Positions 5,735-49,546 of a DNA stretch of 64,000 nt are shown piece by piece; position 1 is the stretch's first letter; each line of letters begins with the position of its first letter. The notes under the pieces are model-generated. The model had not been told where the DNA came from. It ran no database searches and worked only from the letters and a program-made list of their open reading frames with translations. The position numbers and the translations under genes were made by a program. Origin of the DNA: Actinomycetota bacterium (lineage in GTDB: Bacteria > Actinomycetota > Actinomycetes > Propionibacteriales > Propionibacteriaceae); NCBI GenBank assembly GCA_020161755.1, contig JAIUOS010000001.1:62001-126000 (forward strand). Reading direction: 5' to 3'.

Positions 5735-5850
5735 GGGGACGGTTCTTCGATCCGCCGGAATCTGGCGGGTATCGGGGACGGTTCTCCAAACCCGCCGGAA
5801 TCTGGCGGGGATCGGGGACGGTTCTCTAATCCGCCAGATTCTGGCGGATT
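5735..5850. repeat. Repeat family R2, three tandem direct copies
   Basis: Three adjacent units share GGGGACGGTTCT followed by a palindrome of the type CCGCCAGATTCTGGCGG. They begin four bases after the SorC-gene stop codon and may form its terminator. Confidence 0.8.
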
Positions 5851-29524: not shown

Positions 29525-29564
29525 TTGGCAACCGGTGGCAACCAATGGCCGGGTCGGTTGCCAA
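29525..29564. promoter_or_regulatory. Candidate LacI-type operator cluster A (HAD-GH3-nickel permease unit)
   Basis: TTGGCAACCGGTGGCAACC from 29525 followed by GGTTGCCAA at 29556-29564, so inward-facing TTGGCAACC and GGTTGCCAA half-sites 38-77 bp upstream of the HAD gene. Similar GGCAAC motifs occur at the other promoter regions of the sugar-acid block. Confidence 0.5.
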
Positions 29565-30555: not shown

Positions 30556-32298
30556 ATGAGCACCACCGTCGACCTGTCGGCCCTGCCCTACCTCCTGGAC
30601 GCCTCGCAGCGCGGCTGGGTCGAGGAGACCCTCGCCGGGATGTCGGACGAGGAGAAGGTCGGCCAGCTGTTCTTCAACCTGTTCCATTTCGGCACCGACA
30701 CCTTCGGTGGCAACGACCTCACCAACGACGAGATCCTGGCGCGCTACCACATCGGCGGCGCCCGCTACCACGGCGGCAGTGCCGCCCAGGTGCAGGAGCT
30801 GCTGAACAGCCTCCAGGCGTCCTCGAAGATCCCGCTGCTGATCGCGGCCAACTGCGAGTCCGGCGGCAACGGCGCGTGCGCCGAGGGCACCTACATCGCC
30901 ACCGGTGCGCAGTGCGACGCGGCCCGCGGCGACGCCGTCCGCGCCGAGGAGGTGCCGTTCCGCACCGGCCTGGTCTCGGCCCGCGAGGCCGGCGTGCTCG
31001 GCGTCAACGTCAACTTCGCCCCGATCGTCGACATCCTGTTCAACTGGCGCAACACGATCGTGAACACCCGCGCCCACGGCACCACCGCCGAGGACGTGAT
31101 CCGCTCCACCGGTGCCAAGGCGCGCGGCCTGCGCGCGTCCGACGAGGACGTCGCGGTGTGCATCAAGCACTTCCCGGGCGACGGCACGGAGGAGCGCGAC
31201 CAGCACCTCGTGCTCGGCGTCAACGAACTCTCCCCGCAGGAGTGGGACGACTCGTTCGGACGGGTCTACCGCCACCACATCGACGCCGGCGTCGAGATGA
31301 TCATGGCCGGCCACATCGCGCTGCCGGCGTACTCCAAGGTGCTCGACCCGTCGCTGACGGACGCCGACATCATGCCGGCCACGCTCGCTCCCGAGCTGAT
31401 CCAGGGCCTGCTGAAGGACCGGCTGGGGTTCAACGGGCTGGTCGTCACCGACGCCAGCCACATGTTGGGGATGACCTCGGCGATGCGGCGCCAGGACTAC
31501 GTGCCGCGCGCGATCGCGTCCGGCTGCGACATGTTCCTGTTCTTCAACGACATCGCCGAGGACTTCGGCTTCATGCTGGACGGCGTGCGCTCCGGGGTGA
31601 TCCCGCCCGAGCGGCTGGACGACGCGGTGCGCCGGATCCTGGGCCTGAAGGCGAAGCTGAACCTGCACGTGAAGCAGGCGTCCGGGACACTGCTACGCAC
31701 GCCGGACGAGCTCGCGATCATCGGCTGCGAGGAGCACCTGCGCTGGCGCGCGGAGGCCGCGGACGCGTCCATCACGCTGGTGAAGAACACGCTCGACCAG
31801 CTGCCGCTGCGCCCCGAGACCCACCGCCGGATCCGGCTCTACTACCTGGACGCCGACGCCGGCGACATCTACGCGGCCAACCCGCAGGCCCTGGCGACCT
31901 TCGTGGCCGAACTGGAGTCACGGGGCTTCGAGGTGACGGTGAACAACGGCGCCGATCGCGTCAAGGGTCGTACTTTGAAGTACAGGGACGAGGTGGACGC
32001 GGCGATCGTCGTCGCGAATGTCGTCGGCTACGCGGCCGAGAACAACTACCGGATCCGCTGGAAGATCCCGATGAGCACGGACTGCCCCTGGTACGTCCAC
32101 GAGGTGCCCACCGTGATGGTGTCGCTGAACTACACCACCCACCTGCACGACGCCACGATGGTCAAGGCCTACATCAACGCCTACTCCGACAACGCCGAGG
32201 CCATCCGCCAGGTGGTCGACAAGATCACCGGTGTTTCGGCTTTCCACGGCACGTGCAACGATCTGGTGTGGACCGGGAAGTGGCAGGCGAAGCTCTAG
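30556..32298 (+). CDS. Glycoside hydrolase family 3 protein, NagZ-like fold, cytoplasmic
   Basis: 580 residues, no signal peptide, so it should act on imported glycosides. The GH3 (alpha/beta)8 domain shows the nucleophile region GLVVTDASHM (Asp about residue 299). Residues 204-217, KHFPGDGTEERDQH, resemble the NagZ signature KHFPGHGxxxxDSH but have Asp for His and Gln for Ser. The C-terminal ~200 residues resemble the second GH3 domain (IYAANPQALATFVAEL). Substrate unknown: beta-N-acetylhexosaminide, glucoside or glucuronide. Its end overlaps the likely start of the nickel permease. Confidence 0.85.
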   Translation: MSTTVDLSALPYLLDASQRGWVEETLAGMSDEEKVGQLFFNLFHFGTDTFGGNDLTNDEILARYHIGGARYHGGSAAQVQELLNSLQASSKIPLLIAANCESGGNGACAEGTYIATGAQCDAARGDAVRAEEVPFRTGLVSAREAGVLGVNVNFAPIVDILFNWRNTIVNTRAHGTTAEDVIRSTGAKARGLRASDEDVAVCIKHFPGDGTEERDQHLVLGVNELSPQEWDDSFGRVYRHHIDAGVEMIMAGHIALPAYSKVLDPSLTDADIMPATLAPELIQGLLKDRLGFNGLVVTDASHMLGMTSAMRRQDYVPRAIASGCDMFLFFNDIAEDFGFMLDGVRSGVIPPERLDDAVRRILGLKAKLNLHVKQASGTLLRTPDELAIIGCEEHLRWRAEAADASITLVKNTLDQLPLRPETHRRIRLYYLDADAGDIYAANPQALATFVAELESRGFEVTVNNGADRVKGRTLKYRDEVDAAIVVANVVGYAAENNYRIRWKIPMSTDCPWYVHEVPTVMVSLNYTTHLHDATMVKAYINAYSDNAEAIRQVVDKITGVSAFHGTCNDLVWTGKWQAKL

Positions 32299-33362
32299 GG
32301 CAACCGCGCACCCCCGCGTCCGACCGGCGCCCGCTCCTGGGCATGGGCGCGGTCATCGTCATCCTGCACGCGCTGGGCTGGGGGACGCTGCTCGCCCTCG
32401 TGGTGCCGCAGCAGTTGGCCCTCGGCACCGGGCAGGTGTTCGGCATCGGGCTCGGCGTGACGGCGTACACCCTCGGCATGCGGCACGCGTTCGACGCCGA
32501 CCACATCGCGGCGATCGACAACGCCACCCGAGCGCAGCTGGCCGCGGGCCGGCGTCCGCTCTCGGTCGGGTTCTGGTTCTCGCTGGGGCACTCGAGCGTG
32601 GTGTTCGTGCTGGTCGCGCTGCTCGCCGCCGGCGTGGGTGCGGTGGCCACGCAACTGGTCGACGACCGGTCGGTGCTCCTCCGGGCGATGAGCACCTTCG
32701 GCACGCTGGTCTCCGGGATCTTCCTCGTGGTGATCGGCCTGGTGAACCTCGTCGTCCTCGCGGGCATCGCCCGGGTGTTCCGCGGCCTGCGCGCCGGGAT
32801 GCTGGACGAGCGGCAACTCGAGGCCCAACTGCAACGCCGCGGGGTGCTCGCGCGGCTCACCAGCCGGGCGGTGGCGGTCGTCACGAAGCCACGGCAGCTC
32901 TACCCGGTCGGGCTGTTGTTCGGCCTCGGGTTCGACACCGCCACTGAGGTCGGACTGCTCGTCCTGGCCGGCGGCGCGGCAGCGGTGTCCCTGCCGTGGT
33001 ACGCGATCCTCACCCTGCCGGTGCTGTTCGCCGCCGGCATGTGCCTGCTGGACACCGTCGACGGCGTCGTGATGACCCGCGCCTACGGCTGGGCGGACGT
33101 CCGACCGGTGCGGAAGGTGTACTACAACCTCACCGTCACCGGGCTCTCGGTGGTCGTCGCGCTGGTGATCGGCGGGATCGAGCTGCTCGGGGTCCTCGCC
33201 GACCGGCTGGGGATCACCACGGGCCCGCTGGCCGCGATCGCGTCGCTCGACCTCGGCGCGGTCGGCTACCTCGTGGTGGTCCTGTTCCTCGCCGCCTGGG
33301 CCGTGGCCGTCGTGGTCTGGAGGCTCGCCCGCATCGAAGAGCGCTGGTCCCCGTCCCCCTGA
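32280..33362 (+). CDS. Nickel/cobalt permease, NiCoT family (HoxN/NixA type)
   Basis: About 360 residues, eight-helix secondary transporter for Ni2+ (or Co2+). All family signatures are present: RHAFDADHI in helix II, SLGHSSVV, LGFDTATE, and GMCLLDTVD. The start is uncertain: GTG 32280 is given; GTG 32268 (also overlapping the GH3 gene) and ATG 32343 (which leaves almost no N-terminal tail before helix I) are alternatives. The overlap implies co-translation with the GH3 gene. With larA, larE, larB and larC nearby, nickel for the LarA cofactor is the obvious use (inference). Confidence 0.9.
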   Translation: MAGEALGQPRTPASDRRPLLGMGAVIVILHALGWGTLLALVVPQQLALGTGQVFGIGLGVTAYTLGMRHAFDADHIAAIDNATRAQLAAGRRPLSVGFWFSLGHSSVVFVLVALLAAGVGAVATQLVDDRSVLLRAMSTFGTLVSGIFLVVIGLVNLVVLAGIARVFRGLRAGMLDERQLEAQLQRRGVLARLTSRAVAVVTKPRQLYPVGLLFGLGFDTATEVGLLVLAGGAAAVSLPWYAILTLPVLFAAGMCLLDTVDGVVMTRAYGWADVRPVRKVYYNLTVTGLSVVVALVIGGIELLGVLADRLGITTGPLAAIASLDLGAVGYLVVVLFLAAWAVAVVVWRLARIEERWSPSP

Positions 33363-33467: not shown

Positions 33468-34985
33468 TCAGGAGCCGGCGAAGAGGGCGGCGACGTCGTC
33501 GTAGGCGGAGAGCAGGGACGGGATGCGAGCGGCCAGGTCTGCGTAGAGCTCGGGGTGGACGGGATCGACCAGGTCGACGTGGACGGCGGACGCGAGCCGG
33601 TCCGCGGCCGCCACCGGCGAGCTCTCGAGGCCGAGACCCACCAGCGCGAGCGCGGCCGCACCGAGCGCGGTGCCGGCGGCGTCCTCACCGACCTCGACGG
33701 GCAGGGCGAGCGCGTCGGCGACGACCTGGCGCCACAGCGGCGCACGGAACACCCCGCCGGTGGCGCGGACCACCTCGATCGGCTGGACGGCAGCCAGGCT
33801 GCGGGTGATCAGGGCGAGCTGGAGGGCAACCCCCTCGACAGCCGCGCGGACGAAGTGGCCGCGGGTGTGGGAGTGCCGCAGCCCGAGGAACGCACCGGGA
33901 AGCGTCGGGTCCCACAGCGGGGCCCGCTCGGGCAGCAGGTAGGGCAGCATGACCAGCCCGTCGCTCCCGGCGGGCACGGACGCGGCCAGCCGCAGCAGCG
34001 CCGCGTCCCGGTCCCCGTCCGACGCCTCGGCGGACGCATCGCCGAACACGCCGCTCGCCCAGCGCACCACCGAGCCGCCGTTGCTGATCGCGCCGCCGGT
34101 CACCCAGACGTCCTCGGTGAGCGCGTAGCTGAAGAGCCGTCCGGCCGGGTCGAGCACCGGCGCGCCGACCCCGAGGCGCACCGCGCCGCTGGTGCCGATC
34201 GAGACCCCCACGGTGCCGGACGCGAACGCGCCGCTGCCGAGGTTGCCCAGTGGACCGTCCGCGCCGCCGAGCACGACCGGCAGCCCCGCCGGCAACCCGG
34301 TGGCCGCCGCGGCCGCCACACCCAGCGGCAACACGTCCGTGGTGGCGAGGATTGCGGGCAACTTGTCGAGATCGACGCGGGCGAGCGCAGCCAGTTCGGG
34401 GCTCCAGGCGCGGCGGTGCACGTCGAGCAGCCCGGTGCCGGACGCGGACGACAACTCGGTGGCCAGCGTGCCGGTGAGCCGCAGCACCACGAAGTCCTTC
34501 AGCGACACCCAGTGGCGGACGCGGGCCGCGAGCTCCGGTTCCTCCTCGGCGAACCACATCAGCTTCGCGAGCGGTGTCATCGGGTGGGTGGGAACGCCGC
34601 TCAGGCGGTATGCCTCCGCCGCCCGGCCCGACTCCCGCAGCCGCGCGGCCTGCGGCGTGGCCCGTCCGTCCGCCCAGGTGACCAGCGGAGTGAGCGGGAC
34701 GCCGGCGGCGTCCAGTCCGATCAGGCCGTGCATCGCGGTGGACAGCCCCATCCCCACGACGCGCCCGGCGCCGAGAACCTGCCGGCACTCCGCCAGCGCG
34801 GAAAGCACCTCACGCAGGATCCGCTCGGGGTCCTGCACCTGCTCGCCCGGCCGCGGCTGCTCCAGCGGGTACTCCCGACTGAGCACGAGCCGCTCGGGCG
34901 CGTCCACGCCGAAGGCGACCAGCTTGGTGGCGGTCGTGCCGACGTCCAGGCCGATCACGACGCGTCCCGGGGCTGACGAGTTCAC
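33468..34985 (-). CDS. gntK: Gluconokinase, FGGY family
   Basis: 505 residues. Phosphorylates D-gluconate to 6-phosphogluconate. N-terminal GLDVGTTATKLVAF is the FGGY phosphate motif. STAMHGLIGLD, VTWADGRA and SGVPTHPMTPLAKLMW are features of the gluconate branch rather than xylulo- or glycerol kinases; SIGTSGAVR and GGVFRAPLWRQVVADAL are FGGY core motifs. Third gene of the minus-strand unit uxaC-uxuB-gntK (4-nt gap). Its product feeds the nearby 6-phosphogluconate dehydrogenase. Confidence 0.9.
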   Translation of the reverse strand: MNSSAPGRVVIGLDVGTTATKLVAFGVDAPERLVLSREYPLEQPRPGEQVQDPERILREVLSALAECRQVLGAGRVVGMGLSTAMHGLIGLDAAGVPLTPLVTWADGRATPQAARLRESGRAAEAYRLSGVPTHPMTPLAKLMWFAEEEPELAARVRHWVSLKDFVVLRLTGTLATELSSASGTGLLDVHRRAWSPELAALARVDLDKLPAILATTDVLPLGVAAAAATGLPAGLPVVLGGADGPLGNLGSGAFASGTVGVSIGTSGAVRLGVGAPVLDPAGRLFSYALTEDVWVTGGAISNGGSVVRWASGVFGDASAEASDGDRDAALLRLAASVPAGSDGLVMLPYLLPERAPLWDPTLPGAFLGLRHSHTRGHFVRAAVEGVALQLALITRSLAAVQPIEVVRATGGVFRAPLWRQVVADALALPVEVGEDAAGTALGAAALALVGLGLESSPVAAADRLASAVHVDLVDPVHPELYADLAARIPSLLSAYDDVAALFAGS

Positions 34986-34989
34986 GGCG

Positions 34990-36378
34990 TCAGTCTGCCA
35001 GCGCGAGGATCTCCCGTGCCGCGGACAGCACGCCGGCCGCGACGTCCGCGCGCCCGGCGAGGCCGAGGTATGCCAGGACGGCGGACACGCTGTCCTCCAG
35101 GTCGCCGCTGCCGAACGGCGTCACCGTCGCGGCGTTGACGTCCTTCACCGGGGCGCCGGCCCCACGCAGGTGCAACACCCAGGCAGCCACCGCACGGCAC
35201 GCACCCGGCGGGACGCGGCCCGCGGCCAGCTCGGCGGTCAGGGTCGGGACGATCCGCACCGGCACCTTCAGCGAGCCGTCGGACGCGATCTGCGCGAGGG
35301 CGTGCCGGATGTTCGGGTTGCGGTAGCGGTCGAGCAGAGCCGCGCGGTAGGCGGCGAGCTCGGCGGTCGGCAGCGGAATGTGCGCGCACGCCTCGTCCCA
35401 CCACTGCTCGACCCAGGCCAGGCAGCGGGGGTCGGCGATGGCGTCCGCCACGGTCTCGTGGCCGAGGATCGTGGCCGCGTAGGCCAGCAGCGAGTGCGAG
35501 CCGTTGAGCAGCGCCAGCTTGCGCCGCTCGAACGGCGCGACGTCGTCGACGATCCGCGCCCCCGCGCTCTCCCACGCTGGACGCCCGGCGGGGAATGCGC
35601 CCTGGATGACCCACTCGCTGAACGGCTCGGTGGGTACCGGCGCGGCGTCCTCGACGCCGGTCGCGGCCCGGACGGCCGCCCGGTGCTCGTCGGTGGTGGC
35701 CGGGGTGATGCGGTCGACCATCGTGGTGCCGAAGGAGACGTTCGCCGCCAGCCAGGCGGGCAGCGTCGCGTCCACGTGCCCGGCGAGCTCGGAGACGACC
35801 CGCGCGAGCACCGAGCCGTTGTGGGACAGGTTGTCGCAGGACACGATCGCCAACGGACCCCCGGACGCCGCGCGGCGCGCGAGCAGGCCGGCCACGATCC
35901 GGGCGGGGGCGGTGGCCACCGGGGCGGTGGCCGCGGCCCGCAGGGCGGCGACGTCGGCGGCCACCGCAGGATCGGTGAGGTCGGGGCCCCCGTCCGCGCC
36001 CCGCCGGTAGCCGGCCTCGGTGACGGTCAGCGTCACCACCGCGAGCTGCGGGGAGCGGAAGTAGTCCAGCAGGGCGTCGTGCTCGCCGGCGGAGTGGACG
36101 GCCGACAGGCTCGAGATCACCTCGAAGGCGTCCCCGTCCGTGCCGCGGGTGATCAGCGTGTACAGCCCGTCCTGGGGACGCAGCGCGTCGGCCATGGCGG
36201 TCGAGCGCCCGGTGAAGGCGGCGATGCCCCAGGCGACCGCGTCCGCGGCGTGCTCGGTGTACCAGGCCTGGTGGGCGCGGAAGAAGTTGCCGACGCCGAG
36301 GTGGACGATGCGCACCGGGGCGGCGGGACGGCCGTGGCCGGCGTCCCTGCGCAGGGTGGTGGTGGCGGTGATGGTCAC
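34990..36378 (-). CDS. uxuB: Mannitol-dehydrogenase-family oxidoreductase, probable D-fructuronate reductase (mannonate dehydrogenase)
   Basis: 462 residues. Polyol-specific long-chain dehydrogenase: NAD-binding RIVHLGVGNFFRAHQAWYT, GTTMVDRITPAT, SEWVIQGAFPAGRP, and the catalytic KLALLNGSHSLLAY (K-x4-N-x2-H). Next to uxaC the expected reaction is NADH-dependent reduction of D-fructuronate to D-mannonate. The GTG start overlaps the uxaC stop by 4 nt. Related enzymes act on mannitol, tagaturonate or arabinitol, so the assignment rests on context. Confidence 0.85.
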   Translation of the reverse strand: MTITATTTLRRDAGHGRPAAPVRIVHLGVGNFFRAHQAWYTEHAADAVAWGIAAFTGRSTAMADALRPQDGLYTLITRGTDGDAFEVISSLSAVHSAGEHDALLDYFRSPQLAVVTLTVTEAGYRRGADGGPDLTDPAVAADVAALRAAATAPVATAPARIVAGLLARRAASGGPLAIVSCDNLSHNGSVLARVVSELAGHVDATLPAWLAANVSFGTTMVDRITPATTDEHRAAVRAATGVEDAAPVPTEPFSEWVIQGAFPAGRPAWESAGARIVDDVAPFERRKLALLNGSHSLLAYAATILGHETVADAIADPRCLAWVEQWWDEACAHIPLPTAELAAYRAALLDRYRNPNIRHALAQIASDGSLKVPVRIVPTLTAELAAGRVPPGACRAVAAWVLHLRGAGAPVKDVNAATVTPFGSGDLEDSVSAVLAYLGLAGRADVAAGVLSAAREILALAD

Positions 36379-37784
36379 AGCTTGAACGCCTTTCGTGGGT
36401 TGCCGACCACCAGTTCCTCGGCGGCTTCGACGGCCTCGTCGAGGGTGAGCCGGTGCTCGCCGACGAGCCGGGCGAGGTAGCCGGCGTCGATCCGCCGGCT
36501 GAGGTCGTGGCGGGCGGGGATCGACAGGTAGGCCCGGGTGTCGTCGATGAAGCCGGACGTGCGTCCGAACCCGACGGTCTCGGTGACCGCCGACCGGAAG
36601 CGCGTCATCGCGTCCGGGGCGTCGATGAACCACCACGGCACGCCCACGAACACGCTCGGGTAGAACCCGGCGAGCGGGGCCAGCTCGCGGGAGTAGGTGG
36701 TCTCGTCGATGGTGAAGAACACCACCTGGAAGTAGCAGGACGTGCCGAACGCGGCGAGCATCGGCTGGACGGCCCGGGTGAACTCCACCTGCATCGGGAT
36801 GTCGGCGCCGACGTCCGCGCCGAACCGGTCGAACGTGCCGGGGTGGTGGTTGCGGTACACCGCCGGGTGCATGGTCATCACCAGGCCGTCGTCGGCGGCC
36901 ATCCGTGCCTGGGTGAACATGAAGTGGCGACGCAGCGTGTTCGCCTCCTCGCACGTGATCCGGCCCTCGCGGGCCAGCCGGTAGAGCCGGGACGCCTCCG
37001 CCTCGGCCAGCGGCTCGACACGCGCGTCGGCGTGGGAGTGGTCGGACGAGACCGCGCCGCGGGCCTTGAAGTACGCCCGCCGGCTCTCCATGGCTGCGAC
37101 CCAGCCCGCGTAGCTCCCGGTGTCGACCCGGCTGACCTCCCCGAGCCGGTCGACCAGGGCGTTCCAGTCGCTCCGTGCGGGCTCCAGGTAGCGGTCGGGA
37201 CGGAAGGTCGGCGCCACCTGCCCCGTCCAGGACGGGTCGGCGGCGAGCGCGTCGTGGGCGGCCAGGTCGTCGCACGGGTCGTCGGTGGTGGCGAGGAAGT
37301 CGATGCCGAAGCGTTCGAACAGCGCGCGGGGACGGAACTCCGGCGTGGCGAGCTTCGCGGTGATCGCGTCGTAGAGCTCGTCCGCGGTCTCGGCGGACGG
37401 GGCCAGGTCGAGCCCGAAGATGTCGGCCAGCTCCGACTCCAGCCAGAACCGCACCGGGGTGCCCCGGTAGGCCGTCCAGTGCGCGCACAGCGTGCGGAAC
37501 GCCTCGCGCGACTGCTCGGGGGTGAAGGTCTCCTGCGCGACGCCGAGGGCGTCCAGGCCGACCCCGTTGGCGTGCAGCAGCCGGTTGACGTAGTGGTCGG
37601 GGGTGATCAGCAGCGACGTGGGGTCGGTGAACGGCTCGTCCTCGGCCAGCCACTGTGCGGGCACGTGGCCGTGCGGGGAGATGATCGGCAACTCGCGCAC
37701 CGAGGCGTAGATCTCGCGGGCGAGGGGGCGCAGGCCGGGGTCGGCCGGCAGCATCCGGTCGGGGTGGAGTTCGAGTCGAGCCAT
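36375..37784 (-). CDS. uxaC: Uronate (glucuronate) isomerase
   Basis: 469 residues, the standard UxaC length. Amidohydrolase-fold enzyme interconverting D-glucuronate/D-fructuronate (and galacturonate/tagaturonate). The metal-binding SPHGHV motif is at residue ~36. LATTDDPCDDLAAH, SHADARVEP and GFIDDTRAYLSIPARHDLSRR are family motifs. First gene of uxaC-uxuB-gntK, divergent from the LarA-family gene across a 97-bp promoter region with three GTTGCC motifs. Confidence 0.95.
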   Translation of the reverse strand: MARLELHPDRMLPADPGLRPLAREIYASVRELPIISPHGHVPAQWLAEDEPFTDPTSLLITPDHYVNRLLHANGVGLDALGVAQETFTPEQSREAFRTLCAHWTAYRGTPVRFWLESELADIFGLDLAPSAETADELYDAITAKLATPEFRPRALFERFGIDFLATTDDPCDDLAAHDALAADPSWTGQVAPTFRPDRYLEPARSDWNALVDRLGEVSRVDTGSYAGWVAAMESRRAYFKARGAVSSDHSHADARVEPLAEAEASRLYRLAREGRITCEEANTLRRHFMFTQARMAADDGLVMTMHPAVYRNHHPGTFDRFGADVGADIPMQVEFTRAVQPMLAAFGTSCYFQVVFFTIDETTYSRELAPLAGFYPSVFVGVPWWFIDAPDAMTRFRSAVTETVGFGRTSGFIDDTRAYLSIPARHDLSRRIDAGYLARLVGEHRLTLDEAVEAAEELVVGNPRKAFKL

Positions 37785-37820
37785 GTCCCCATCGTCACGG
37801 CTGGGCCCGGATCGGGGAAT

Positions 37821-37855
37821 GCGTTGCCGGGAGTTGCCGCCCACTGTTGCCGCCG
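37821..37855. promoter_or_regulatory. Candidate LacI-type operator cluster B (uxaC / larA divergent promoters)
   Basis: Three GTTGCC motifs at 37823, 37833 and 37846 lie in the 97-bp divergent gap. They are candidate binding sites that would control both the uxaC operon and the LarA-family gene. Confidence 0.5.
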
Positions 37856-37881
37856 GCCCGGGGCAGGAGCAGGGTGGGCGC

Positions 37882-39171
37882 ATGACCCAGACGATCGACC
37901 GTGTCGCGGAGCTCGCGCAGGGAGCCGCCCTCATCGGCGGCGCGGACCAGGTCCTCGACGACGAGCAGGTGCGCGCCTTCATCGCCGAACAGCTGGCCGG
38001 CGTCGACCTCGACGGGCGCAGCGTCTGCCTGGTGATCCCGGACGGCACCCGTTCCAGTCCGCTGCCGCTGCTGCTCGGCGCCGTCCACGGTGCGCTCACC
38101 GGACGGGTGAGCCGGCTGACCGCGGTGATCGCCCTCGGCACGCACGTGGGCATGTCGGACGCGGCCATCGCCAAGCACCTGGGGTACGGCGACGGCGGCC
38201 TGGAGGGCACCTATCCGGGGATGACCGTGATCAACCACGAGTGGGCCGACCCCGACACGTTCGTCGAACTCGGCACGATCAGCGCCGAGCGGGTCGGCGA
38301 GCTCAGCGGGGGGCTGCTCCAGGTGCCGGCGAGGGTCGCCCTGAACCGGGCCGTGGTCGAGCACGACGTCGCCCTGGTCGTCGGGCCGGTGTTCCCCCAC
38401 GAGGTGGTCGGGTTCTCCGGCGGCAACAAGTACTTCTTCCCCGGCATCGCCGGCCAGGAGATCATCGACCTCACCCACTGGGTGGGTGCCCTGATCACCA
38501 GCGCGGAGATCATCGGCACGCTGGGCATCACGCCGGTGCGGGCGCTGATCAACGAGGCCGCGGCGATGATCCCGTCCGAGAAACTGGCGCTCTGCGTGGT
38601 GGCGAAGTCGGGGAGCCACGACCTGCACGCGGCCGCGTTCGGCGGCACCGAGGAGGCCTGGGCCGCGGCGGCGCAGGTGTCTGCGCAGACCCACGTTCGC
38701 TACCTCGACGCCCCGGTGAAGCGGGTGGTGTCGCTGATCCCGGACAAGTACGAGGACATCTGGACGGCGGCGAAGGGCTTCTACAAGCTCGAGCCGGTGG
38801 TGGCCGACGGCGGGGAGGTCATCCTGTACGCGCCGCACGTGACCGAGATCTCCTTCGTCCACACCGAGATCTACGACATCGGCTACCACTGCCGCGACTA
38901 CTTCGTGAAGCAGTGGGAGAAGTTCGCGGGGATCCACTGGGGGGTGCTGGCCCACAGCACCCACCTGCGCGGCGCCGGCACCTACGACGAGGTGGACGGG
39001 GAACGCTGCCGGGTGGACGTGACGCTGGTCACCGGCATCCCCGAGCACAAGGTGCGGGGCGCCAACCTCGGCTACCTCGCGGTGGAGGACTTCGACCTGG
39101 CCGCCTACGAGGCCGACCCGGACACCATGGTCGTGCCCAACGCCGGGGAGACCCTCTTCCGCCTGCGCTGA
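37882..39171 (+). CDS. larA: LarA-family nickel-pincer-dependent 2-hydroxyacid racemase/epimerase
   Basis: 429 residues. Lactate-racemase superfamily (DUF2088). The NPN-site residues can be seen: IPDGTRSSP (Asp54, Arg57), GTHVG (His88), FPHEVVGFSGGNKYFFPGIAG (His173; Lys183, which tethers the pincer nucleotide) and LTHW (His199). These correspond to the catalytic set of Lactobacillus plantarum LarA. The neighbours (gluconokinase, fructuronate reductase, uronate isomerase) argue for a sugar acid, most simply C2 epimerisation between D-mannonate and D-gluconate, rather than lactate (inference). The 3' end overlaps the convergent lacI-type gene by 67 bp. Confidence 0.9.
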   Translation: MTQTIDRVAELAQGAALIGGADQVLDDEQVRAFIAEQLAGVDLDGRSVCLVIPDGTRSSPLPLLLGAVHGALTGRVSRLTAVIALGTHVGMSDAAIAKHLGYGDGGLEGTYPGMTVINHEWADPDTFVELGTISAERVGELSGGLLQVPARVALNRAVVEHDVALVVGPVFPHEVVGFSGGNKYFFPGIAGQEIIDLTHWVGALITSAEIIGTLGITPVRALINEAAAMIPSEKLALCVVAKSGSHDLHAAAFGGTEEAWAAAAQVSAQTHVRYLDAPVKRVVSLIPDKYEDIWTAAKGFYKLEPVVADGGEVILYAPHVTEISFVHTEIYDIGYHCRDYFVKQWEKFAGIHWGVLAHSTHLRGAGTYDEVDGERCRVDVTLVTGIPEHKVRGANLGYLAVEDFDLAAYEADPDTMVVPNAGETLFRLR

Positions 39172-40139
39172 CCGGTCGAGCCGCGCACCTTCAGCTGCAC
39201 CGGCATCACCGACGCCTCCCCGGTGCGGTGCTTGGCGCCCTTCATCAGCGCCACCACGTTGTTCACGGCGGTCGCGCCCATCTGGCGCATCGGGGCGGCC
39301 ACGGTGGTCAGGGTGGGCAGCACCAGCCGGGAGATCAGGATGTCGTCGAAACCGATCACACTGACCTGTTCGGGGATCTGGACGCCCTCGCGCAGGAAGC
39401 CGTGCATGACGCCGATCGCCATCAGGTCGTTGTAGCCGATGACCGCCGTGGGCAGCTTCTCCAGCAGCGTCCGGGACGCCGACAGGCCGCCCTCGAAGGT
39501 CGGCAGGTACGGCCCCACCTTCTGGATGTTCAGGCCGGCTCTGCCGCCGAGGTCGCGCAGGGCGCGGAAGCGCATCCCGTCCGCCCAGGACGCCTCCGGC
39601 CCGGCGACGTAGGTGACCGAGTCGTGGCCGAGGTCGCGCAGCAGGTCGATCGCGGCCTGGATGCCGGCGGCGTTGTCGGTGACCACGCTGGGCACGTCGG
39701 AGAGGGCGCGGTTCAGGACCACCATCGGACGCTGCTTGGCGACGTTGCGCAGCGCGGAGTCCGACATCCGGGAGCTGCCGATGATGAAGCCCTCGACGAC
39801 CGGGACGAGGCGCTCCAGCGCCGTCCGTTCGCGCGTGCCCGACTCGCGGGAGTCGGCCAGCAGGAGTTCGTAGCCGGCCTCGGTGGCGGCCAGCTGGGCG
39901 CCGCGGATCAGCTGGGAGTAGAACGGGTTGGCCACGTCGGAGACCATCAGCCCGAGCAGCTTCGTCTGGGACGTCGCCAGCGCCTGGCCGATCGGGTTGG
40001 CGCGGTAGCCGAGCTCTTCGGCGATCCGGCGGATGCGCTCGGCGGTGTCGGCGTTCACGCGTCCGGGACGCGCGAAGGTGCGGCTCACCGTCGACGGCGC
40101 GACGCCGGCCGCCTCGGCGACGTCGTAGATGGTGACCAT
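39105..40139 (-). CDS. LacI-family transcriptional regulator
   Basis: 344 residues. N-terminal HTH MVTIYDVAEAAGVAPSTVSR with the hinge helix at NPIGQALAT, then a periplasmic-binding-protein-like effector domain (LLGLMVSDVANPFYSQLIRG; VSVIGFDDILISRLVLP). ATG 40139 is chosen with GGAG 9 nt upstream; a GTG six codons earlier is possible. The last ~22 residues (basic SP-rich tail) are encoded antisense to the end of larA and look like read-through past the normal LacI terminus. It probably senses a pathway sugar acid and controls the GGCAAC-containing promoters (inference). Confidence 0.9.
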   Translation of the reverse strand: MVTIYDVAEAAGVAPSTVSRTFARPGRVNADTAERIRRIAEELGYRANPIGQALATSQTKLLGLMVSDVANPFYSQLIRGAQLAATEAGYELLLADSRESGTRERTALERLVPVVEGFIIGSSRMSDSALRNVAKQRPMVVLNRALSDVPSVVTDNAAGIQAAIDLLRDLGHDSVTYVAGPEASWADGMRFRALRDLGGRAGLNIQKVGPYLPTFEGGLSASRTLLEKLPTAVIGYNDLMAIGVMHGFLREGVQIPEQVSVIGFDDILISRLVLPTLTTVAAPMRQMGATAVNNVVALMKGAKHRTGEASVMPVQLKVRGSTGQRRRKRVSPALGTTMVSGSAS

Positions 40140-40186
40140 GCGGGGCTGCTCCGTCACCCGCCCAGCGTAACGGTCACCCCTCCCCT

Positions 40187-40277
40187 GGGGACGGTTCTTC
40201 GATCCGCCAGATTCCGGCGGAAAACGGGGACGGTTCTTCGATCCGCCAGATTTCGGCGGGTATCGGGGACGGTTCTT
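40187..40277. repeat. Repeat family R2 (two full copies and a partial third)
   Basis: Units GGGGACGGTTCTTCGATCC plus a CCGCCAGATTCCGGCGG-type palindrome, as at 5735-6003. It lies upstream of the lacI-type gene, in the ~690-bp gap before gnd. Confidence 0.8.
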
Positions 40278-40378
40278 GTCTCGGTCCGGGACCGGATTGG
40301 GGACTGATCCTGAGATCCCGGCCTTCGCCGGGGTGACCAGGGCGTCACGAAGGGCCCCCGACTACCGGAACGCCACCC

Positions 40379-40545
40379 TTTACCGCGTTTCTCGGCTTTT
40401 CGCCGACCTCGGCGACCGGCGTGCAGGTGGTTACCGCGTTTCTCGGGTTATCGGTGCGAACTCGGGGCTGATAAGCCGAGTTTCGCGGTAAGCACTTGCC
40501 GGGTCGCCGTCAATCGGCCTGATAACCCGAGGAACTCGGTAATCA
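40379..40545. repeat. Repeat family R6, diverged copy
   Basis: Several TTACCGCGTTTCTCGG...TTAT elements and their complements (ATAAGCCGAGTTTCGCGGTAA type). Related to the ~228-bp repeats at 58.0 and 63.5 kb. No coding potential recognised. Confidence 0.65.
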
Positions 40546-40571
40546 CTCGCAGAGCCGGGACGCGGCTAGAC

Positions 40572-40684
40572 CGGCGGCCCTTCGTGACGCCGCCCGGCTC
40601 CTCAGGGACCGTGAACCCTCACGCACCCGCTACCTGAGGAGCGCTGGTGAGGAACGAGCCAGCGCGTCACGAAGGGCCGCCGGC
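40572..40684. repeat. Repeat family R7, inverted pair
   Basis: A reverse copy (40572-40608, CCTTCGTGACGCC...CTCCTCAGGGA) and a forward copy (40632-40684, CCTGAGGAGC...GTCACGAAGGGCC). A further copy lies between gyrB and gyrA. Confidence 0.7.
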
Positions 40685-40700
40685 TGGAGCGCCCTCAAGA

Positions 40701-40735
40701 CCGGACCGAAAGGGGACTGTCCCCTTTCGGTCCGG
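40701..40735. repeat. Repeat family R3, perfect palindrome
   Basis: A 35-bp palindrome with 17-bp arms (CCGGACCGAAAGGGGAC) and a single central base, just upstream of the gnd promoter region. A direct relative of the glpC/yaaA terminator. Confidence 0.8.
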
Positions 40736-40740
40736 ACGCA

Positions 40741-40761
40741 GCAACCGACGGCAACCTGTTG
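40741..40761. promoter_or_regulatory. Candidate LacI-type operator C (gnd-larE-larB promoter)
   Basis: GCAACCGACGGCAACCTGTT: two (G)GCAACC motifs 10 bp apart, 65-85 bp upstream of the gnd ATG. Confidence 0.4.
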
Positions 40762-40825
40762 AGCGGGGGGCCGCATGCTGGTTGATTGGACGCGAGCACA
40801 CGACCCACGTCCAGGAGCGACCACG

Positions 40826-42307
40826 ATGACCAGCCCGCAGACCACGCCCATCGCCACCGCCGACATCGGCGTCGTCGGGTTGGCGGTGATGGGCAGGAAC
40901 CTGGCGCGCAACTTCGCCCGGCACGGCTACACGGTCGCGCTGTACAACCGCACCACGTCGCGGACGGACGCCCTGGTCGCCGCCCACGGCGACGACGGCG
41001 CCTTCGTCCCCTCGGCCACCGTCGCCGACTTCGTCGCCAGCCTCAAGCGTCCGCGGCGGATCGTCCTGATGGTGCAGGCCGGTGCCGGGACGGACGCGGC
41101 CATCCAGTCGCTCGTGCCCCACCTCGAGCCCGGCGACATCGTGGTGGACGGCGGCAACAGCCACTTCCCGGACACCATCCGGCGCGAGCGCGAACTGAGC
41201 GCCCTCGGCCTGCACTTCGTCGGCGCCGGCATCTCCGGAGGCGAGGAAGGCGCGTTGAACGGGCCGGCCATCATGCCGGGCGGGCCGGCGGAGTCCTACA
41301 CCGACCTCGGCCCGATCCTGGAGAGCATCGCCGCGACGGTGGACGGGGTGCCGTGCTGCACCCACGTCGGGCCGGACGGCGCCGGGCACTTCGTGAAGAT
41401 GGTGCACAACGGCATCGAGTACGCCGATATGCAGCTGATCGGCGAGGCCTACGACCTGCTGCGCCAGGGCCTGGGGGCCGGCGCGTCCGAGATCGGCGAC
41501 ATCTTCGCCGACTGGAACACCGGCGACCTGGAGTCGTTCCTGATCGAGATCACGGCCGAGGCCCTGCACCAGGTGGACGCGACTACCGGGCACCCGTTCG
41601 TGGACGTGGTGGTCGACGAGGCCGGCCAGAAGGGCACCGGACGCTGGACGGTCCAGAACGCGCTCGACCTCGGCGTCCCGGTCACCGGCATCGCCGAGGC
41701 CACGTTCGCCCGGGCACTGTCGAGCTCGCTGCCCCAGCGGGAGGCCGCCCGCCGAGTGCTGCCCGCCGCCGCCGAACCGCTCGTGGTCACCGACCGCGCG
41801 GCCTTCATCGAGGACGTCCGCTCGGCGCTGTACGCGTCCAAGGTGGTCGCCTACTCGCAGGGCTTCGACCAGATCGCCGCGGCCAGCGCCGCGTACGGCT
41901 GGAACATCGACCGCGGCGCGATGGCCCGCATCTGGCGTGGCGGCTGCATCATCCGGGCGCGGTTCCTGAACCGCATCACCGAGGCGTACGAGCGCGACCC
42001 CGAGCTGCCGCTGCTGCTGGCCGACCCGTACTTCGCCGCCGCGATCACCGCCGGGTTGCCCGCGTGGCGACGGGTCGTGGCCCAGTCCGCCCTCGCCGGC
42101 ATCCCGGCGCCGGCGTTCGCGTCCTCGCTGGCCTACTACGACGGCCTGCGCGCGGAACGCAGCTCGGCGGCCCTGATCCAGGCGCAGCGCGACCTGTTCG
42201 GCGCGCACACCTACCGCCGCGTCGACCGTCCCGGGGTGTTCCACACGCTGTGGTCGGGGGACCACAGCGAGATCGAGATCCCGCCCCTTGTCCCGACCGG
42301 CGCGTGA
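40826..42307 (+). CDS. gnd: 6-phosphogluconate dehydrogenase, decarboxylating
   Basis: 493 residues. Converts 6-phosphogluconate to ribulose 5-phosphate, CO2 and NADPH. N-terminal IGVVGLAVMGRNLARNFARHG (Rossmann; Asn-Arg-Thr after the second strand suggests NADP), VDGGNSHFPDT, GAGISGGEEGA, catalytic HFVKMVHNGIEYADMQL, and C-terminal IWRGGCIIRARFL. CCAGGAG precedes the ATG. In many actinobacteria gnd sits between dnaN and recF; here it lies in the sugar-acid block, first in a unit with larE and larB. Confidence 0.96.
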   Translation: MTSPQTTPIATADIGVVGLAVMGRNLARNFARHGYTVALYNRTTSRTDALVAAHGDDGAFVPSATVADFVASLKRPRRIVLMVQAGAGTDAAIQSLVPHLEPGDIVVDGGNSHFPDTIRRERELSALGLHFVGAGISGGEEGALNGPAIMPGGPAESYTDLGPILESIAATVDGVPCCTHVGPDGAGHFVKMVHNGIEYADMQLIGEAYDLLRQGLGAGASEIGDIFADWNTGDLESFLIEITAEALHQVDATTGHPFVDVVVDEAGQKGTGRWTVQNALDLGVPVTGIAEATFARALSSSLPQREAARRVLPAAAEPLVVTDRAAFIEDVRSALYASKVVAYSQGFDQIAAASAAYGWNIDRGAMARIWRGGCIIRARFLNRITEAYERDPELPLLLADPYFAAAITAGLPAWRRVVAQSALAGIPAPAFASSLAYYDGLRAERSSAALIQAQRDLFGAHTYRRVDRPGVFHTLWSGDHSEIEIPPLVPTGA

Positions 42308-42323
42308 GGGTGAGGCTGAACCC

Positions 42324-43184
42324 ATGACGGCCGTCGCCCTGCCCGACGAGGTGACCACACTGACGAACCGGGTGCAGCGTGCGCTCGGCGCGCCCGCCCG
42401 GCTCGGCGTGGCGTTCTCCGGTGGCGTCGACTCCTCGGTGCTGCTCGCGCTCGCGACCCGTTCGCTGGGCCCCGACCGGACGCTGGCGATCCTCGGCGTC
42501 TCGGCGAGCCTGGCCGCGTCCGAACGCCGGGACGCCCACGAGGTCGCCGCCGGGATCGGCGTCCCGCTGGTCGAGCTGACCACGCACGAACTCGAGCGGC
42601 CCGAGTACGTCGCGAACGGCCCCGACCGGTGCTTCCACTGCAAGACCGAGCTGTTCAGCCTGATCGACGACGAGGTCGCGAGCCGGTACCGGCTCACCGC
42701 CATTGCCTACGGCGAGAACGCCGACGACGCCCGGCGTCCGGACCGTCCGGGGGCGCGGGCGGCCACCAACCACCGGGTGCTCCGGCCGCTGGCGGACGCC
42801 GGCCTGGGCAAGGCGGACGTCCGTCGCGTCGCCCGGGCGCTCGGCCTGGCCTCGGCCGACAAGCCGGCCGCGCCGTGCCTGGCGTCCCGGATCCCGCACC
42901 ACGAGCCGGTGACCGCGGCCAAGCTGCGCCAGGTCGAGGACGCTGAAGCGGCACTGCACGAACTCGGCTTCACCGACGGACGGGTACGCCACCACGGGGA
43001 CGTCGCCCGCATCGAACTGCCGGTCGACGAGCTCGTCCGGGCGGTCACCGAGCCGACCCGCAGCGCCCTGCTGCGCGGGGTGCGCGCGGCGGGCTTCCGG
43101 TTCGTCAGCATCGACCTCGCCGGCGTCCAGTCAGGCGCCTTCACCCTCCCGCTGGTGACTCGCGGCGGGACGAGCGATGCCTGA
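42324..43184 (+). CDS. larE: LarE, ATP-dependent sulfur transferase for nickel-pincer cofactor
   Basis: 286 residues. PP-loop enzyme with FSGGVDSS (about residue 31), CFHCKTELFSLI and AYGENADD. It adenylylates the carboxylates of the LarB product and donates sulfur. Cys185 in PAAPCLASRIP corresponds to the sacrificial cysteine of L. plantarum LarE, so this is the sacrificial type rather than the iron-sulfur three-cysteine type. GAGGGTGAGG precedes the ATG. Overlaps larB by 8 nt. Confidence 0.93.
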   Translation: MTAVALPDEVTTLTNRVQRALGAPARLGVAFSGGVDSSVLLALATRSLGPDRTLAILGVSASLAASERRDAHEVAAGIGVPLVELTTHELERPEYVANGPDRCFHCKTELFSLIDDEVASRYRLTAIAYGENADDARRPDRPGARAATNHRVLRPLADAGLGKADVRRVARALGLASADKPAAPCLASRIPHHEPVTAAKLRQVEDAEAALHELGFTDGRVRHHGDVARIELPVDELVRAVTEPTRSALLRGVRAAGFRFVSIDLAGVQSGAFTLPLVTRGGTSDA

Positions 43185-44007
43185 GCACCCGGCGTCCCCC
43201 CGCCACCCCGACCGCGCAGACGCCCCCGAAACTCACACACGCCCCCGAAATTTCGGGGGCATCGGTGAACTTCGGGGGCGTTTGGACGGGGACGGGGGGC
43301 CGGACGCTCCCGCGGCGGACGGTGAGTCGGACGCGGCGTGGCAGCCGCCACCGGAGCTGCGGGACGTCGCCGACCTCGACTTCGACCGCGAAGGCCGTCG
43401 CGGGTACGCCGAAGCCGTCTACTGCGAGGCCAAGACGCCCGAACAGGTGCGGCTGATCGCGGCCGCGGTGGGCGAGCGCGGGGCGCGGACGCTGTTCACG
43501 CGGGCCAACGACGAGCACGCGGCTGCCGTTCGGGCGTCCCTGCCGGACGCCGTCCACGACGCCGAGTCACGGCTGCTGTGGTGGCCGGCCGCACTGCCCG
43601 AGCCCACCGGCGGCCTGGTGGTGGTGGCCGCCGCCGGCACGTCCGACCTGCCGGTGGCGCGCGAGGCCCGGCAGGTGGCCGCGTTCCTCGGGCGTCCCAC
43701 GGAACTGGTGGCCGACGTGGGCGTCGCCGGGTTGCACCGGATCCTGCGCCGGCTCGACCTGCTGCGCTCGGCCGCCGTCGTGGTGGTGGTCGCCGGCATG
43801 GACGGTGCCCTGCCCAGCGTGGTCGCCGGCCTGGTCAGCGCGCCGGTGGTCGCCGTCCCCACGTCCGTCGGTTACGGCGCCGCGTTCGAGGGCCTGGCCC
43901 CACTGCTCACGATGCTCAACTCGTGCGCCCCCGGCGTCGCGGTGGTGAACATCGACAACGGCTACGGCGCCGGCCACCTGGCCGCCCAGATCGCCGCCGG
44001 CCGCTGA
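43177..44007 (+). CDS. larB: LarB, nicotinate mononucleotide carboxylase/hydrolase for nickel-pincer cofactor
   Basis: 276 residues. It carboxylates nicotinic acid adenine dinucleotide at C5 and hydrolyses it to the P2CMN precursor of NPN. Family motifs: DLDFDREGRRGYAEAVYCEAKTPEQ, VAAAGTSDLPVAREA, VADVGVAGLHRIL, VVVAGMDGALPSVVAGL, TSVGYGAAFEG, and NIDNGYGAGH. The stop is followed at once by a double hairpin. Codons 13-37 are a copy of repeat R1, giving ADAPETHTRPRNFGGIGELR before the conserved domain. Starts inside the end of larE (8-nt overlap). Confidence 0.93.
   Translation: MPEHPASPRHPDRADAPETHTRPRNFGGIGELRGRLDGDGGPDAPAADGESDAAWQPPPELRDVADLDFDREGRRGYAEAVYCEAKTPEQVRLIAAAVGERGARTLFTRANDEHAAAVRASLPDAVHDAESRLLWWPAALPEPTGGLVVVAAAGTSDLPVAREARQVAAFLGRPTELVADVGVAGLHRILRRLDLLRSAAVVVVVAGMDGALPSVVAGLVSAPVVAVPTSVGYGAAFEGLAPLLTMLNSCAPGVAVVNIDNGYGAGHLAAQIAAGR
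43215..43286. repeat. Dispersed palindromic repeat R1, copy 5, inside larB
   Basis: The only R1 copy within a coding sequence. It keeps the larB frame open. Compared with other copies a CGTTTG is changed to CATCGG, so the peptide reads GGIGELRG instead of GGVCELRG. Confidence 0.85.
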
Positions 44008-44076: not shown

Positions 44077-45090
44077 CTACAGCTCCTGGCCGGCGGGCAG
44101 CAGGCCGGAACGGCGATAGACCTCCCGCAGGACGCGCAGCGGCGCGAGGCCGGCGTCCAGGCCGATCCAGAAGGGCTCGGGGTCGGCCAGCCTCGCATGG
44201 AAGTCGTCGATGAGCAGGGCGTGGCCGCGTCCCCAGTACGACCGCTGGCCGCCCGCCTGGGTGTCGGAGGCCAGCACCGTCTCCCCGGACGCGGTGCGCA
44301 GCCGCGCCTCACCGCCGGCCAGCCGCAGCACCCCACGAGCGCCCACGATCTCCAGCTCGACGTCGTCGTTGCGGTGGTGGGTGTTGGTAGCGAAGAACGT
44401 CGAGCGGACGCCGCCGGCGTGCTCCAGCACGATCGTGGCCGTGTCCTCCACCTCGACGGACGCGGCCAGCGCGAGCGTCGCGGCGCTACCGCTCGACCAC
44501 ACCGGCTCGCCCAGCAGCCACAGCAGCAGGTCGAGGGTGTGGATGGCCTGGTTGATCAGGACACCGCCACCGCCCTCCGCCCACCGTCCGCGCCACGGCG
44601 CCGCCGCGTAGTACGCCGCAGTACGCGACCACCACACGGCCGCCCGCGCGCCCTGCACGGGGCCGATCAGCCCGTCGTCCAGCGCCCGCCGGAGTGCGAC
44701 CGAGGTCGGGTTGTACCGGTTCTGGAACACCACGCCCACCTTCACCGCGGACGCCGCCGCGCGCGCCCGCAGCTCCTCGGCCGAGGCGACGGTGTGCCCG
44801 ACCGGCTTCTCGGTGAGCACGGCCACGCCCGCCTCGAGCGCGTCCAGGGCGACCGGCACGTGCTGGTGGTGCGGGGTCGTCACGTGCACCACGTCCACCC
44901 TGACGGACGCGAGCAGCGCGCGATGGTCGGCGAAACCGGGGACGCCGAGCCGCTCGGCAGCCGTCCGGCAGCGTTCGGCGTCGACGTCGCACACCGCCAC
45001 CAGCTCGATGGACGGGTTGGCGGTGATCGCGTCCAGGTGCAGCGCGGAGATGTCGCCCAGCCCGACGACCGCCGCCCGCGTCCTAGGCAT
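44077..45090 (-). CDS. Gfo/Idh/MocA-family oxidoreductase
   Basis: 337 residues. NAD(P)-dependent sugar/cyclitol dehydrogenase: Rossmann AAVVGLGDISALHLDAI, the EKP motif (VAVLTEKPVG), and the catalytic-region GGGVLINQAIHTLDLLLWLLG. Substrate unknown. It overlaps the upstream TIM-barrel gene by 8 nt; the two form a minus-strand operon. Such pairs commonly oxidise glycosides or inositols to keto-sugars and process them further. Confidence 0.88.
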   Translation of the reverse strand: MPRTRAAVVGLGDISALHLDAITANPSIELVAVCDVDAERCRTAAERLGVPGFADHRALLASVRVDVVHVTTPHHQHVPVALDALEAGVAVLTEKPVGHTVASAEELRARAAASAVKVGVVFQNRYNPTSVALRRALDDGLIGPVQGARAAVWWSRTAAYYAAAPWRGRWAEGGGGVLINQAIHTLDLLLWLLGEPVWSSGSAATLALAASVEVEDTATIVLEHAGGVRSTFFATNTHHRNDDVELEIVGARGVLRLAGGEARLRTASGETVLASDTQAGGQRSYWGRGHALLIDDFHARLADPEPFWIGLDAGLAPLRVLREVYRRSGLLPAGQEL

Positions 45091-45910: not shown

Positions 45911-45938
45911 GTGCCCATTCCAGACCTCCGTCCGGGGT

Positions 45939-45975
45939 GTGGCAACAGCGCCCGACAACCGATGGCAACAACTGG
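45939..45975. promoter_or_regulatory. Candidate LacI-type operator D (divergent TIM-barrel / oxidoreductase promoters)
   Basis: GGCAAC at 45941 and 45964 with an ACAACC between, inside the 125-bp divergent gap. Confidence 0.45.
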
Positions 45976-46035
45976 TGTGCAGGCCGTCCGACCGGCTTAG
46001 CGTGAGGCGTACATTCGCCAACGAAGGACGAACAC

Positions 46036-47208: not shown

Positions 47209-47209
47209 C

Positions 47210-49410: not shown

Positions 49411-49460
49411 GACCTGATGGTAGGACGCCGTGCCGGCGGTGGACCCCCCGGCGAGGAAAC

Positions 49461-49480
49461 AGTTGGCAACGAGTGCCACC
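49461..49480. promoter_or_regulatory. Candidate LacI-type operator E (larC / transporter divergent promoters)
   Basis: AGTTGGCAACGAGTGCCA: a GTTGGCAAC half-site followed by a weaker inverted TGCCA, in the 136-bp divergent gap. Confidence 0.45.
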
Positions 49481-49546
49481 CCGAATCCCCGCGTCCTTAC
49501 TGTCAAGCCAACCTCGCACGAACAGTGCCTGACCAAAGGATCTTCA

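Follow-up and report, generated by a model that had tools for sequence, protein, structure and literature searches.

A cluster of uronate genes in an actinobacterial genome raised the question of how D-mannonate, once formed from glucuronate, could reach central metabolism when no mannonate dehydratase (UxuA) is encoded beside them. The cluster surrounds a gene for a LarA homologue and lies in a stretch of 64,000 nucleotides, here called the window, which covers bases 62001-126000 of contig C1. The genome is 4.08 Mb in 61 contigs and is 96% complete. The locus was read, with a probability of roughly 0.8, as a glucuronide and glucuronate catabolic regulon with a nickel-dependent GntE route to the pentose phosphate pathway. 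In this route UxaC would isomerise glucuronate to fructuronate and UxuB would reduce fructuronate to D-mannonate. The LarA homologue, acting as a nickel-pincer nucleotide (NPN)-dependent epimerase of the GntE type, would invert C2 and yield D-gluconate. A kinase would convert D-gluconate to 6-phosphogluconate, which the 6-phosphogluconate dehydrogenase Gnd would oxidise and decarboxylate to ribulose 5-phosphate. The cofactor would be supplied by LarB, LarE and LarC with nickel imported by NicT. An operator of the form GTTGCC-N4-GTTGCC, most likely read by the local LacI-family protein, would govern these operons.

The gene order at the centre of the locus was as an earlier note on this DNA had described it, with uxaC, uxuB and a kinase gene divergent from larA and with gnd and cofactor genes close by. 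LarA (37882..39171, PF09861, likely ATG at 37882) is encoded on the plus strand. The divergent genes, on the minus strand, encode the glucuronate/uronate isomerase UxaC (36375..37784, PF02614), a mannitol-dehydrogenase-family reductase that is likely the fructuronate reductase UxuB (34990..36387, PF01232/PF08125) and an FGGY carbohydrate kinase, likely a gluconokinase (33468..34985, PF00370/PF02782). UxaC scored 524 bits against NCBIfam model NF002794, above the cut-off of 387, and 446 bits against PDB entry 2q01. The uxaC and uxuB genes overlap and the gap between uxuB and the kinase gene is 4 bases, so the three probably form one operon. Convergent with larA is the gene for a LacI-family regulator (39105..40157, minus strand, PF00356 and ligand-binding domains), the candidate reader of the operator. 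It is followed on the plus strand by genes for Gnd (40775..42307), the sulfur transferase of cofactor synthesis LarE (42288..43184; TIGR00268, 265 bits, cut-off 150) and the cofactor synthesis protein LarB (43177..44007; NF033503, 273 bits, cut-off 175). Gnd scored 730 bits against NF006765, above the cut-off, and is the sole full-length PF00393 match in the genome. The gene for LarC, which inserts nickel into the cofactor, lies 4 kb past larB on the minus strand (48178..49371; PF01969, 402 bits) in an open reading frame (ORF) of 48178-49569 with an inferred start near 49371. The set for NPN synthesis, LarB, LarE and LarC, is thus complete within the window.

A nickel importer, a symporter and the operator were added to what the earlier note had reported. 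The importer is a NiCoT-type high-affinity nickel transporter, NicT (32343..33362, plus strand; PF03824 NicO, 285 bits; start inferred). It ends a plus-strand run that is headed by a HAD-like protein (29602..30519; start inferred), with a weak PF13419 match of 20 bits, below the cut-off, and continues with a glycoside hydrolase family 3 (GH3) protein (30556..32298; PF00933, 164 bits). Homologues of the HAD-like protein adjoin GH3 in relatives. The symporter belongs to the GPH family (49547..51076, plus strand, start inferred) and scored 385 bits against TIGR00792, above the cut-off of 231. Its closest named model was the glucuronide transporter NF007353, where 463 bits fell below the cut-off of 528.

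The LarA homologue is the sole Lar_N match in the genome. It scored 192 bits against PDB entry 4nar alone and 282 bits with a 24-row profile, while the same profile gave 62 bits for lactate racemase and 55 bits for the malate racemase Mar2. Entry 4nar is GntE2 of Thermotoga maritima, according to PMC7583248. Identity to GntE2 was 34% compared with 23-25% to three other LarA types, as calculated on partial sequences. An AlphaFold2 model had a pLDDT of 93 and its best PDB fold was again 4nar, with a template modelling (TM) score of 0.87 and a root mean square deviation of 2.5, the next fold having a score of 0.75. LarA was also placed in a tree, as the earlier note had proposed; the tree was unrooted with three groups, and GntE2 was favoured by branch lengths rather than by topology.

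Seven residues, D54, R57, H88, H173, K183, H199 and K298, were invariant in alignments of 24 and 29 rows when aligned to 2yjg and 4nar. These are the cofactor and catalytic set, corresponding to D72, R75, H108, H174, K184, H200 and K298 of the reference LarA. E174, V175 and W294 were also invariant, in 24/24 and 29/29 rows. In the gluconate epimerase groups the catalytic histidine is followed by E and V (LarA positions 175 and 176), and helix 11 carries a W where LarA has Y294 (PMC7583248, PMC11770544); the second of these papers also describes a third GntE and gives residue patterns. A357-H358 was invariant, matches A351-H352 of GntE2 and fits the published pattern of E, V, A and H, in a region that lies beyond the end of the LarA alignments. 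Position 358 was assigned to GntE2 N348 (here G354) in PMC7583248, while PMC11770544 places A and H there (358, 359). A lactate or malate racemase was ruled out by the loop residues, scores, identity and fold. Assignment of LarA as a D-mannonate/D-gluconate 2-epimerase of the GntE type is a well-supported prediction from sequence because of the GntE residues, the nearest solved structure being GntE2, and the linkage and shared operator with glucuronide genes in relatives. The epimerase route that the earlier note had put forward gains from the same evidence; the genome is, though, not free of the canonical branch, as detailed below.

The shared operator emerged from an alignment of uxaC/larA promoters from six relatives, in which the direct repeat GTTGCC-N4-GTTGCC was conserved. 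A palindrome search of seven intergenic regions of the window gave one 16-base match, upstream of gnd. Five copies of the repeat lie in the locus, all 20-85 bases before likely starts. Two are exact. The first (29527..29542, minus strand) precedes the HAD-GH3-NicT run by about 60 nt. The second (37823..37838, plus strand) sits in the promoter between the divergent uxaC and larA genes, at distances of 39 nt and 44 nt from their starts. Three carry one mismatch and are on the minus strand, upstream of gnd-larE-larB (40740..40755), upstream of a pair of genes for a TIM-barrel protein and a Gfo/Idh/MocA oxidoreductase (45954..45969) and between larC and the GPH symporter gene (49455..49470). The two exact copies are the only ones in the genome, and three of the genome's 27 one-mismatch copies are in the locus. 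Of the 29 copies that carry no more than one mismatch, five thus fall in a 20-kb stretch and 24 outside it, while a backwards-read control gave 12 in the genome. Expectation for the window was 0.41 copies compared with the 5 observed, and 5 copies were not attained in any of 100 shuffles.

Validation of the operator used 108 loci outside the discovery set, and a site was counted if within 300 bases upstream of a gene. The operator was present upstream of uxaC in 41/59, lacI in 26/55, gnd in 11/30, larE in 5/33 and uxuB in 1/53; uxuB is usually an inner operon gene. It was upstream of larA in 35/107, being found in 30/60 loci with uxaC and in 5/48 without it, although the uxaC and larA counts largely reflect one common promoter. 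Spacings of 2, 3, 5 and 6 gave 0-2 sites over all six genes, permuted half-sites gave 0-3 and the inverted version none. A spacing of 7 was found at larA (11/107) and uxaC (11/59), where it reflects a third repeat; each of the other genes had one such site at most. A stricter recount by genus groups, assigned by hand and without the discovery loci, gave 28/39 for uxaC, 22/33 for lacI and 10/17 for gnd. Over all loci the operator preceded the beta-glucuronidase gene in 10/17 loci (9/15 groups) and the GPH symporter gene in 8/10, and nine of the ten beta-glucuronidase sites also lay in the promoter of an adjacent lacI, symporter or uxaC gene. Among GPH homologues in relatives, a further tally gave an upstream site in 4/6. 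HAD (3/8), GH3 (4/9) and TIM-barrel homologues (3/10) also had upstream sites. From this distribution the sites behave as the operator of a glucuronide regulon.

In the base frequencies of 105 sites a further, weaker half-site, GGCAAC, was visible two bases upstream, and the site may therefore be partly palindromic. The site upstream of uxaC was present in 37/48 loci with a LacI homologue and in 4/11 without one, a modest difference (p 0.025). The local LacI was taken as the most likely reader of the operator, through which it would control these operons. Nickel import is probably under the operator through the HAD-GH3-NicT run, both here and in the relative locus L041, which has a one-mismatch site before the HAD gene of its own HAD-GH3-NicT run.

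Conservation was examined in 120 larA loci, of which 112 were non-identical and 84 of these had flanks of 6.5 kb or more on each side. Neighbours within 8 kb were counted by tblastn; gene calls based on third-position GC content missed genes and served only to find neighbours. De-duplication varied between counts, with 115 unique loci in one, 108 in the validation set (two above the stricter rule) and 112 of 120 in others. Near larA in the 84 loci were uxaC (45), uxuB (43), LacI (46), larE (31), larB (29), larC (25) and gnd (22). At least one of larB, larC and larE was present in 32/84 and uxaC or uxuB in 49/84. The culturable relatives Geodermatophilus obscurus (L086) and Raineyella antarctica (L153) each combine uxaC, uxuB, larA and lacI in one locus. 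A UidA-like beta-glucuronidase was close to larA in 14/84, a GPH symporter in 8/84 and a 2-keto-3-deoxy-6-phosphogluconate (KDPG) aldolase in 2/84. One relative locus, L158, encodes a UidA-type beta-glucuronidase of 858 bits (cut-off 544) together with a GPH symporter. NicT was near larA in 3/112 unique relatives. Chance clustering of these genes near gnd was ruled out by the conservation and the operator.

Kribbella loci had no uxaC nearby. In one of them (L088:3468-10503) larA is flanked by genes for a berberine-bridge-type FAD oxidase and an FMO-like reductase. The same epimerase may serve another purpose in these loci.

Several results weigh against the nickel-dependent route to the pentose phosphate pathway. 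No uronate, lar or gnd genes were near larA in 22/84 loci. The best NCBIfam model for the LarA of the window, NF052594 (group-18 putative hexonate epimerase), gave 152.5 bits against a cut-off of 500, so the protein is not a member. With two mismatches allowed the operator motif was not enriched in the window (9 compared with 7.5 expected). It preceded larE in only 5/37 of all loci and stood directly before larC in 0/30, larB in 0/34 and NicT in 0/3 in relatives; the cofactor genes appear to come under the operator mainly as passengers behind gnd. The FGGY kinase scored 330 bits against the NCBIfam model gntK_FGGY, below the cut-off of 649. The highest NCBIfam score of the reductase was for D-arabinitol dehydrogenase (266 bits), followed by fructuronate reductase (252 bits) and tagaturonate reductase (187 bits), none of which reached its cut-off. 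The authors who described GntE1 of Corynebacterium glutamicum doubt that mannonate is its native substrate (PMC7583248). The contig also encodes, at a distance of about 55 kb, a divergent UxuA, a KDPG aldolase and two kinases of the PfkB family, with one operator-like copy of one mismatch in the 50 kb that hold them. Exclusion between GntE and UxuA was looked for across the phylum in 296 genomes, 20 of them with UxaC, and none was seen.

The reductase had a mannitol dehydrogenase as its best PDB match and was called UxuB because of its context and its position after uxaC. For the FGGY kinase the best PDB match was 3gbt, an entry named gluconate kinase, at 277 bits; the highest-scoring entry with the name xylulokinase reached 156. 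Relatives carry kinases of three unrelated families in this slot, counted within 8 kb of larA: FGGY (15/84), PfkB (8/84) and P-loop GntK (4/84). The P-loop GntK type is classically gluconate-specific. The PfkB kinase in relatives is closest to 2-keto-3-deoxygluconate (KDG) kinases, and in several of them it lies between gnd and larA (L075:10713-11822, L158:6008-7192). This position makes it a candidate gluconokinase.

The kinase could instead act first, making 6-phosphomannonate that LarA would then epimerise. In extracts of Lactobacillus suebicus mannonate is phosphorylated before epimerisation (PMC6978723), and the score of the FGGY kinase below the gluconokinase equivalog cut-off would also agree with such an order. 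GntE1 and GntE2, on the other hand, act on free D-mannonate in vitro (PMC7583248), and the alternative kinases of relatives include the P-loop GntK type. A kinase-first order was considered improbable, and in the preferred route epimerisation would come before phosphorylation.

The earlier note had found no UxuA, KDG kinase or KDPG aldolase in the block. This held for the block, where family profile searches found no UxuA, but did not hold for the genome. The divergent UxuA (ORF C1:156437-157852) passed the subfamily model NF003027 with 205 bits (cut-off 191) and missed the equivalog model TIGR00695 with 142 bits (cut-off 200). It belongs to a second sugar-acid cluster (L008:3116-16711, at C1:149-163 kb) that encodes, in order, an ABC transporter, an RraA-like protein, DUF4432 and DUF5054 proteins, a short-chain dehydrogenase, the divergent UxuA, a lactonase-family protein, the KDPG aldolase, a KDG-kinase-like PfkB protein, a LacI-family protein and another PfkB protein. 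With the divergent UxuA, KDPG aldolase and PfkB kinases in the genome a second exit from mannonate may exist.

Such an exit could leave LarA to act on another sugar acid, for example an aldarate, while mannonate would be degraded by the divergent UxuA together with a PfkB kinase and the KDPG aldolase. The presence of that cluster and the suggestion of glucarate or mannarate for GntE1 by its authors (PMC7583248) would suit this. It would leave unexplained why Gnd is in the operator set and why gluconokinase-type genes are present. No UxaC was found in the UxuA-KDPG aldolase cluster, as the one UxaC match of the genome is in the window, and divergent UxuA was present in only 5/51 good family genomes with GntE only (hand count). 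This alternative was judged very improbable.

The two branches could also run in parallel, the nickel branch being used when nickel is available or when NADPH or pentose is needed. In T. maritima the gene sets gntE-gntK-gnd and kdgA-kdgK-uxuB-uxuA are both placed under UxaR (PMC3750489), and the present genome has the UxuA homologue and one operator-like copy in its gene run. A canonical set co-regulated with the locus had been a concern of the earlier note. The set exists, but its one-mismatch copy lies inside the 3' end of the DUF4432 ORF, 58 bases before the ORF that starts the DUF5054-dehydrogenase-UxuA run, and is one of the 24 such copies outside the glucuronate locus. Membership of the UxuA cluster in the same regulon is unlikely. 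In addition, 46 of the 57 good family genomes with GntE and UxaC had no UxuA of either type above cut-off (hand count). Parallel use of both branches is unlikely on this evidence, though it deserves some weight.

The separation of GntE from UxuA is visible at the level of the family. No UxuA was close to larA in the 84 full-flank loci when the genome's own divergent UxuA was used as the tblastn query. A survey of 197 genomes drawn evenly from the source's bacterial family found UxaC in 68/74 genomes with a strong LarA of this type and in 36/123 without it. Good genomes were defined by a completeness of 90% or more and a contamination of no more than 5%, and 83 of these had UxaC. Among the 83, GntE without canonical UxuA was present in 51 and canonical UxuA without GntE in 16, while 6 had both (5 of these from a single genus) and 10 had neither, with classes typed by hand and with the canonical UxuA class including split or fragmentary matches (G027, G065, G086, G096). 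The separation was significant by Fisher's test (p 3e-6, uncorrected for kinship). Both states were present in the source's own genus (4 and 2). In the phylum set the 20 genomes with UxaC comprised 2 with strong GntE (the source genome included), 1 intermediate, 3 with canonical UxuA, 1 with divergent UxuA only and 13 with none, a count that ignores weak LarA matches of <70 bits.

The familiar glucuronate route of Escherichia coli, uxaC-uxuBA-kdgK-eda, has the same first two steps to D-mannonate, with glucuronide uptake and hydrolysis upstream. It then uses the UxuA dehydratase and Entner-Doudoroff aldol cleavage and not an epimerase, gluconokinase and Gnd. The D-gluconate 2-epimerase activity that the earlier note mentioned for the LarA superfamily has been described for enzymes from T. 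maritima and C. glutamicum, which epimerise D-mannonate in vitro with a Michaelis constant of 17 mM for GntE2 and 120 mM for GntE1 (PMC7583248). GntE1, or LarAH19, is like the present protein an actinobacterial LarA homologue, and for GntE2 entry into the pentose phosphate pathway was suggested by the authors (PMC7583248). The Thermotoga pectin locus gnd-uxaR-uxaE-uxaD-gntE-gntK forms part of the UxaR regulon (PMC3750489, citing Rodionova 2012), and epimerisation followed by gluconokinase and 6-phosphogluconate dehydrogenase was proposed for Thermotoga by Rodionova 2012, according to PMC6978723. The route is therefore not new in kind and is less novel than the earlier note had thought.

T. maritima resembles the present locus in encoding GntE, gluconokinase and Gnd with uronate genes (PMC7583248, PMC3750489). 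It differs in serving galacturonate and pectin through UxaE, in having a GntR-family regulator and in standing beside kdgAK-uxuBA under the same regulator, and the accessible description of its locus names no nickel importer or cofactor genes (PMC3750489). The galacturonate route of L. suebicus, which leads to the phosphoketolase pathway, likewise takes mannonate to 6-phosphogluconate and bypasses UxuA; it differs in that the kinase precedes a 6-phosphomannonate 2-epimerase activity (PMC6978723). Word searches of the open-licence literature, in the portions available, found neither a paper describing this route in Actinobacteria nor one linking nickel-pincer enzymes to glucuronate. The locus is well supported as an actinobacterial variant of a known pathway, with in-vivo proof absent from the literature covered. 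There are two new elements. One is the operator-defined regulon, which joins glucuronide use, the epimerase and Gnd with the cofactor genes, probably with nickel import as well. The other is the apparent replacement of UxuA by GntE at the family level.

Other features lie in and around the locus. Two Gfo/Idh plus TIM-barrel pairs occupy positions 44077-48058 of the window, one with an operator copy upstream. One pair comprises a Gfo/Idh/MocA oxidoreductase (44077..45090, minus strand; PF01408, PF22725) and a xylose-isomerase-like TIM barrel protein (45083..45910, minus strand; PF01261; start inferred). Such pairs recur close to larA in several Actinoplanes loci. REP-like palindromic repeats of the form GGGGAC(T/A)GTCCCC were present at window positions 10343, 10376, 40712, 44015, 44054 and 48071, and REP-like repeats with GGGGACGGTTC at 5735-5814 and 40187-40265. 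The catabolic locus (window 24712-56857) is located between dnaA-dnaN-recF-dciA and gyrB-gyrA, dciA being named by position and sequence. These two groups are usually near each other. In the relative locus L046 the same cluster is between dciA and gyrB, and in L043 the cluster adjoins recF-dciA.

The GntE enzymes have a measured reaction and no proven cellular role in the literature covered. The regulon ties an actinobacterial type of GntE to glucuronide uptake and hydrolysis and to Gnd, and conversion of mannonate to gluconate is thus the most economical assignment. Glucuronate or a product of it might, through the LacI-type regulator and the operator, induce the sugar-acid enzymes, nickel import, cofactor synthesis and the only full-length Gnd together, in a pathway that replaces mannonate dehydratase in much of the family; the chance of this broader proposal was put at somewhat less than even. 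The regulon predicts nickel-dependent growth on glucuronate in these bacteria and predicts that a sugar acid can control nickel import. If true, this would be a case of substrate-induced nickel uptake serving a sugar pathway.

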